A stretch of 21,204 bases of DNA from a virus, in the IMG/VR virus record IMGVR_UViG_3300012351_000030, positions 1 to 21,204 of that record, one strand, 5' to 3'. Of the stretch, positions 1,562 through 2,464 are shown in pieces (position 1 is the stretch's first letter; each line of letters opens with the position of its first letter). A program made the position numbers and the translations under genes. Under the pieces are notes generated by a model. That model saw only the letters and a list, made by a program, of their open reading frames with translations. It had not been told where the DNA came from and did not search any database.

Positions 1562-1759
1562 ATGAGTAATTGGAAATGGCACTTTGTATGGGCAGCTGCC
1601 CTTACTGGTATTATAACTGCTATTGCTTACAACACAGCTCAATATAACATAGAAGCGGTTAAGCAGGATGCTTTTATGATGAAAGCGTGTATGGATGCAG
1701 GTGGATCTTGGGAAGTAGATTGGAGAACACAAAGAAATTGTAAAAGACCTGGAAGTTAA
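1562..1759 (+). CDS. Small membrane-anchored protein with paired C-terminal cysteines
   Basis: 65-aa protein with one predicted membrane helix near the N-terminus (about residues 6-23, Trp/Ala/Ile-rich) and a short polar tail. The tail has two cysteines (in MKACMDAGGSW and RNCKRP) that could form a disulfide if it faces the periplasm. Such one-helix phage proteins are common and poorly characterised. No lipobox is visible. AAGG at about 1549-1552 upstream of ATG 1562 is a plausible ribosome-binding site. It is the last gene before the tmRNA promoter. A role in lysis or superinfection exclusion is possible but unsupported. Confidence 0.6.
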   Translation: MSNWKWHFVWAAALTGIITAIAYNTAQYNIEAVKQDAFMMKACMDAGGSWEVDWRTQRNCKRPGS

Positions 1760-1774
1760 GATCTTTTATTCTTC

Positions 1775-1805
1775 TTGACATTTGACGTTAAAGATGCTAT
1801 AAATA
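1775..1805 (+). promoter_or_regulatory. Promoter of the tmRNA locus (sigma70-like, also matching T4 late)
   Basis: TTGACA at 1775-1780 and TATAAA at 1798-1803 are spaced by exactly 17 bases, a textbook sigma70 promoter. The -10 region is also TATAAATA (1798-1805), the T4-type late promoter element found at other sites here. Transcription should start near 1810-1812, just before the acceptor piece of the tmRNA. Confidence 0.75.
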
Positions 1806-1810
1806 ACTAT

Positions 1811-1874
1811 GACACTTGTTGATATGAGGTAGGTAGATACTAAGACCTGGGGGCAGTACCCAGCGCCTCCACCA
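1811..1874 (+). ncRNA. tmRNA acceptor piece (T arm, 3' acceptor strand, CCA)
   Basis: The piece runs from the inferred transcription start to CCA at 1872-1874. It holds the 3' strand of P2 (ATACTAA, 1837-1843), a perfect 5-bp T stem with loop GGCAGTA rather than the usual TTCGA, and the acceptor strand CGCCTCC plus discriminator A. This T-loop and the encoded CCA resemble, from memory, alphaproteobacterial two-piece tmRNA. Confidence 0.8.
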
Positions 1875-2048
1875 TGAGAACATCTAGGGATTAAATGCTA
1901 CGCCAATAGCTATTGTCCTAACAAAGTTAGGGAACCAGAAGGTTGGCGCCTTCGAATAAAGTACCGGTCGGAAACCGGAGATAGGATCCAGGTTCGGTTC
2001 CTCTTGTCCTCAGAAGGCAAGTAGCTTAAGGACTGATGTTCTCATGGA
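1875..2048 (+). ncRNA. Structured intervening segment of the permuted tmRNA precursor
   Basis: This 174-base segment separates CCA from the mature 5' end. Its termini extend the acceptor helix: 1872-1884 pairs with 2035-2047 (13 pairs) after a single A/A mismatch. Inside are CCTAAC-AAA-GTTAGG (1917-1931); GAAGG/CCTTC (1938-1953); CCGGT/ACCGG (1964-1978); CTTG-CCT/AGG-CAAG (2003-2021); and GGGAACC (1930-1936) with GGTTCCT (1996-2002), enclosing two hairpins and competing with the first at 1930-1931. Processing by RNase P and other RNases is expected to remove it. No convincing coding frame was found: one frame is open from 1878 to about 2020 but has no ATG, GTG or TTG start that I could support. 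Confidence 0.7.
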
Positions 2049-2176
2049 GGGGGCGAAATAGGATCGATTGGTATTGAGAAGCCGCATGGAGAGTGTATCG
2101 GTGGTCGAGCGACCCGTAATAAATGCAAACGTACTTGCACCTATGGATTACGCCTTCACGGCGTAATCGGGAGTCC
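2049..2176 (+). ncRNA. tmRNA coding piece (5' acceptor strand, tag frame)
   Basis: It starts with GGGGGCGAAATAGGATCGA, close to the conserved 5' end of tmRNA as I remember it. The P2 5' strand is at 2068-2074. An inverted repeat GGTC/GACC (2103-2114) sits where pseudoknot 1 should be, about 11 bases before the tag. The tag frame (2125-2166) ends in a perfect 9-bp helix (2146-2154 with 2160-2168) that contains the stop codon, like helix 5 of other tmRNAs. The 3' end is uncertain; a further 7-bp stem (GGAGAGA/TCTCTCC, 2177-2204) follows and may mark or follow it. Confidence 0.75.
2125..2166 (+). other. Predicted tmRNA tag reading frame: ANVLAPMDYAFTA-stop
   Basis: Reading from GCA at 2125 (the usual alanine resume codon, preceded by TAATAAAT) gives a 13-residue tag ending at TAA 2164-2166. 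The first two residues, Ala-Asn, match typical tags. The last two are Thr-Ala rather than Ala-Ala, which is unusual because ClpX recognises a terminal Ala-Ala. The resume codon is inferred by position; no other start gives a short closed frame ending in the helix. Confidence 0.6.
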
Positions 2177-2227: not shown

Positions 2228-2464
2228 ATGATTATACCAGAATTTGTTTCTCCTACAGCCTCTTTTATAGAGGATATAGAACGACTAGTTAAAGAGGATA
2301 ACCTCAATCATTTGGATGCAATCATTCATTGGTCCGAAAGTAAGAATATTGACCTAGATTATGTCGCGACACTTGTCTCGAAGAATTCGACATTAAAGAG
2401 TAAGCTTCGGTCAGAAGCAGAAACCTTAAATCATATTCCAAAGAGTAAGAGGTTGCAAATCTGA
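2228..2464 (+). CDS. 33: gp33-like late transcription co-activator
   Basis: In T4, gp33 binds the beta flap of host RNA polymerase and, with gp55 and the sliding clamp gp45, activates late promoters. This 78-aa protein has the compact helical form seen in gp33 of T4-like phages of cyanobacteria and alphaproteobacteria: an acidic helix with HLDAIIHWSE (28-37), then LKSKLRSEAETLNHIPKSKR (56-75), which matches my memory of the family's C-terminus. ATG 2228 has GGGAG (2218-2222) five bases upstream. A longer frame reaches back to 2123 but would start inside the tmRNA and is rejected. Gene order gp33, gp59, gp32 matches T4. It is shorter than T4 gp33 (112 aa). Confidence 0.75.
   Translation: MIIPEFVSPTASFIEDIERLVKEDNLNHLDAIIHWSESKNIDLDYVATLVSKNSTLKSKLRSEAETLNHIPKSKRLQI

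Follow-up and report, generated by a model that had tools for sequence, protein, structure and literature searches.

A circularly permuted tmRNA gene of alphaproteobacterial type upstream of gp33 in a fragment of a T4-like phage

The permuted ("cut and swapped") two-piece form is the rarer kind of ribosome-rescue RNA, and an earlier note on a viral contig placed such a gene at positions 1811-2176. The window analysed here is the whole stretch of 21,204 nt (positions 1 to 21,204 of the IMG/VR record IMGVR_UViG_3300012351_000030). The locus raises the questions of whether the gene is genuine, when a phage would express it, and what is held in the long segment between its two pieces.

A covariance-model scan, the kind of check proposed in the earlier note, gave full-length plus-strand matches to two Rfam permuted-tmRNA models: alpha_tmRNA (RF01849) at 1771-2207 with 80.3 bits, E 1.2e-20 and model positions 1-355 of 355, and tmRNA_permuted (RF04321) at 1813-2166 with 75.2 bits and model positions 1-213 of 213. 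Both scores exceed the curated cut-offs, which are 50 bits for RF01849 and 47 bits for RF04321, and a permissive Rfam scan of 1700-2300 returned only these two families, otherwise chance matches. The presence of a real, full-length alphaproteobacterial-type permuted tmRNA gene in the window is thereby confirmed. ARAGORN reported no tmRNA or tRNA over the window, perhaps because the intervening segment is long and the sequence divergent; annotation by this tRNA-finder would thus have overlooked the gene.

The arrangement is that of a circularly permuted two-piece tmRNA, as had been claimed, with the acceptor half, bearing CCA at 1872-1874, preceding the mRNA-like half, whose mature 5′ end is at 2049. 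The elements of the gene, all on the plus strand, are as follows.

1811-1874: tRNA-like (acceptor) piece, from the RF01849 and RF04321 alignments
1837-1843 with 2068-2074: P2, its 5′ arm in the acceptor piece and its 3′ arm in the mRNA-like piece
1847-1863: T stem-loop, stem 1847-1851 with 1859-1863, from the covariance-model alignments
2049-2055 with 1864-1870: acceptor stem of 7 counted base pairs, including G3-U70
1871: A73
1872-1874: encoded CCA
1875-2048: intervening segment of 174 nt, without an ORF
2049-2207: mRNA-like piece, to the end of the RF01849 match; the acceptor 5′ strand (2049-2055) is followed by GAAAUAGGAUCGA
2125-2166: tag reading frame, with resume codon GCA at 2125-2127 and stop codon UAA at 2164-2166
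2146-2154 with 2160-2168: predicted 9-bp hairpin enclosing the stop codon
2177-2183 with 2198-2204: predicted 3′ terminal hairpin of 7 bp

The pairings listed in the earlier note, namely the 7-bp acceptor stem with G3-U70, P2 and the T stem, are all present, as is the encoded CCA. The core of the gene also lies where it had been placed, but its limits do not hold, as the terminal hairpin reaches about 2204-2207 and a promoter lies at 1775-1805. All seven acceptor pairs are kept in 226 of 242 relatives and likewise in the window copy, which, when tested for alanine identity, showed the 7-bp acceptor with G3-U70. Alphaproteobacterial permuted tmRNAs (RF01849 and RF04321, for example that of Caulobacter) have all the helices, G3-U70, CCA and the GCA resume codon in common with the window copy, and differ in a segment of about 30 nt against 174 nt; the window copy is further set apart by a tag ending in FTA, a phage promoter and a separate phage lineage. 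Taken together, sequence, structure, synteny and conservation, from which the timing of transcription, processing, charging and activity are judged, indicate that this is very probably a functional phage-borne ssrA of the permuted alphaproteobacterial type.

By its gene content, the window belongs to a T4-like phage, of which it covers a part. The following features surround the tmRNA gene.

1562-1759, plus strand: small ORF upstream of the tmRNA, 65 aa with a hydrophobic N-terminal stretch, from the ORF list
2228-2464, plus strand: gp33-like late-transcription coactivator, 78 aa (phrog_254, E 1.6e-14)
from 3361: gp59-like helicase loader (PHROG search)
from 4738: gp32-like ssDNA-binding protein (PHROG search)

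The phrog_254 match bears out the claim that the tmRNA of a T4-like phage lies directly upstream of gp33. A PHROG search with the 65-aa ORF gave no match. The tmRNA-gp33 pair is flanked by two related ORFs (851-1321 and 2466-2963) that share phrog_10499/16532 and both contain HExxH; they are possible metallopeptidases. The location had been called unusual, a view contradicted by the isolate Methylophilales phage Melnitz (MZ577097, PMC9004378, published in 2022) and by more than 40 further viral contigs in which ssrA lies upstream of gp33. The order ssrA - gp33 - gp59 - gp32 recurs in dozens of viral contigs, and the location is thus typical of the kind. The conserved mature 5′ end, used as a query against viral contigs, matched at least 120 stretches. 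A search with gp59 returned a single near-identical fragment, beginning downstream of the tmRNA.

Like the window, Melnitz is a T4-like phage with an alpha-type permuted tmRNA, and it shares the order ssrA - gp33 - gp59 - ssDNA-binding protein and the promoter TTGACA-17-TATAAATA. It departs from the window in three features: a glutamine riboswitch follows its tmRNA (L202 6364-6412), its tag is ANDNYVPVDYALAA, and its 142-nt intervening segment contains an ORF. For phage genomes the Melnitz paper reports a total of 53 two-piece tmRNAs, of which 50 are marine or aquatic (PMC9004378). The window tmRNA joins a known kind, already found in aquatic T4-like phages, in which ribosome rescue borne by the phage appears to be old and conserved rather than occasional.

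The promoter directly upstream of the gene bears on when the tmRNA would be made.

1775-1805, plus strand: composite promoter, with TTGACA at 1775-1780, a 17-nt spacer and TATAAATA at 1798-1805

This site fits the -35 and -10 elements of host sigma70 near-perfectly, and its -10 element doubles as a T4 late -10 box. TTGACA-17-TATAAATA precedes 58 of 124 viral tmRNA genes and none of 116 bacterial ones; TATAAATA alone was found before 78 of the 124 viral genes (2 in shuffles) against 1 of the 116 bacterial. It is the sole composite site in the window, where further TATAAATA boxes occur among the tail genes. A simple promoter scan overlooked 1775-1805 because its rule requires T at the sixth -10 position. 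The composite promoter supports expression of the tmRNA both early and late, with both halves presumably in use. Melnitz ssrA is placed behind an early promoter in the available part of its description, which contains no mention of an early/late overlap (PMC9004378). The composite promoter of phage permuted tmRNAs is apparently new. Its conservation provides a testable claim on when phages need trans-translation.

According to the proposed mechanism, a single precursor would be transcribed from about 1811, in early infection by host RNA polymerase with sigma70 and later a second time by the late-transcription apparatus of the phage. Host tRNA-processing enzymes would cut after CCA 1874 and before G2049, the 174-nt segment being discarded, and the two pieces would be held together by the acceptor stem and P2. 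Host AlaRS would charge the molecule with alanine via G3-U70. The window covers only part of the genome and showed no smpB, so SmpB would have to come from the host; together with it, the tmRNA would free ribosomes that have stalled and append the tag ANVLAPMDYAFTA, maintaining rescue capacity during the breakdown of phage and host mRNAs. The conservation of the promoter and the atypical tag make both roles suggested in the earlier note, rescue after host shut-off and an altered tag, plausible.

The tag raises an alternative. LAA-type tag ends are the signal for ClpXP, and the 13-residue tag of the window ends in FTA, that is in TA and not AA. Tags were extracted by a simple motif rule from a subset of the copies; an AA ending was read in 96 of 98 viral tags and in 72 of 73 from bacteria. 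The TA ending could weaken recognition by ClpXP or could reflect an error in the contig. It is possible, though rather doubtful, that the tmRNA still rescues ribosomes while its tag is a poor degradation signal, so that partial phage products are released or the host tmRNA is competed with. The rarity of the ending would agree with this, as would the confinement of the base changes at the tag end to the hairpin loop, the stem being spared; a tag-less phage tmRNA form, that of DS6A, reportedly inhibits the endogenous tmRNA (PMC11915505). Against it, the FTA tag is known from one contig, and two base changes may equally be drift or contig error.

The aberrant tag end has also to be weighed in asking whether the window holds a captured host gene that is now decaying or inactive. 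With alpha_tmRNA, ten relatives tested scored 92-143 bits against 80 for the window copy, the lowest of the phage copies compared. In a tree of 232 tmRNAs the window copy groups with its nearest tmRNA, that of viral contig L182 (support 95), on a long branch (0.33) that leaves its exact place uncertain; the low score and the long branch make partial decay possible. However, every defining helix is preserved, together with the resume codon, the tag frame, the hairpins at the stop codon and at the 3′ end, and a strong promoter. The same tree separates viral and bacterial tmRNAs near-completely (3 label changes versus 78 in shuffles); phage tmRNAs form lineages of their own, largely apart from bacterial copies, which argues against recent capture. 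A decaying or inactive host copy is thus very unlikely, and a functional phage gene remains the preferred reading. L182 likewise has a peptidase-like ORF, a homologue of 2466-2963, between gp33 and gp59.

The 174-nt intervening segment exceeds the bacterial median of 30 nt (n=117; 90th percentile about 49 nt) and the viral median of 86 nt (n=124). Its ends pair as a precursor stem (1875-1884 with 2035-2044) that prolongs the acceptor, a usual feature of these genes. A long segment is also found in tmRNAs whose intervening sequence contains a tRNA gene or a repetitive element (PMC11915505); unlike these, the segment of the window contains no tRNA or T arm according to ARAGORN, and the permissive scan of 1700-2300 found no known RNA within it. 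A structured RNA was also rejected, as the z-score of -6.2 for the whole precursor loop is owed to the terminal stem and the core without it has z -1.47; the fold ranks 18 of 89, and other segments fold more stably than their shuffles. The longest nested ORF has only 13 codons, and no homologues of the segment were found in phage records, in viral contigs (exact 27-mer) or in the fetched loci. The length of the segment, and the protein genes that occupy the equivalent slot in relatives, would be explained if it had a function of its own as a small regulatory RNA or were the relic of a nested gene, but lacking an ORF, a significant core fold and any homologue, it is unlikely to owe its length to this. 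The segment is taken to be a non-coding spacer or a relic; the chance that it has a function of its own is small.

In relatives the slot is often occupied. Viral segments of 90 nt or more number 60, and in 44 of them an ORF covers at least 60% of the segment, where 17 are expected from shuffles. Non-synonymous changes per site are fewer than synonymous ones in all 34 comparable ORF pairs (pN/pS 0.00-0.58; members of one family do not give independent pairs), which indicates that the comparable nested ORFs are under purifying selection. Many of the nested ORFs carry a Shine-Dalgarno sequence. The stop codon of many is placed either one base ahead of the mature 5′ end (UGAU|GGGG) or among the initial codons of the mature piece (GGGGGCGAAAUAG). 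Several have homologues that are ordinary free-standing genes next to the tmRNA of other phages, among them the gene directly upstream of Melnitz ssrA, so genes appear to have entered or left the segment slot. PHROG families gave no match for the 10 nested ORFs tested. Loci with ORFs in the segment are listed below.

L057, L073, L084, L117: small ORFs of the MKNPLVKK family
L019/L101/L105/L106 and L018/L036/L111/L005: small ORFs
L027/L082, L035/L112, L025, L028, L074, L110, L116, L004: further small ORFs
L202 6043-6184: the 142-nt segment of Melnitz, its ORF unannotated

In the part of the literature covered, no description of protein genes nested in the excised tmRNA segment was found; such genes in phage tmRNA segments are apparently undescribed, and the window is without such an ORF. 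There is about an even chance that the phage tmRNA gene is a compact dual-phase unit, combining an overlapping early/late promoter with an excised segment that serves as a gene slot; this would hold a small mRNA with a Shine-Dalgarno sequence in many relatives, with its stop at or just past the cut site, and 174 nt of non-coding sequence here. In that case, the cutting of the tmRNA precursor would have the further effect of releasing translation of the nested gene, and might also limit it. If confirmed, the nested protein genes of relatives would be a new form of gene packing, a protein gene within a structural RNA gene, freed by RNA processing.

Three other loci differ in detail. The 499-nt segment of L024 contains a 120-aa ORF whose homologue (37-59% identity) is a free-standing gene in about 15 further contigs with a tmRNA. 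L039 has a glutamine riboswitch aptamer (1019-1072) directly after the tmRNA, as in Melnitz and absent from the window. The 193-nt segment of L155 holds a second mature 5′ start (TGATGGGGGCG), as though the segment end had been duplicated.
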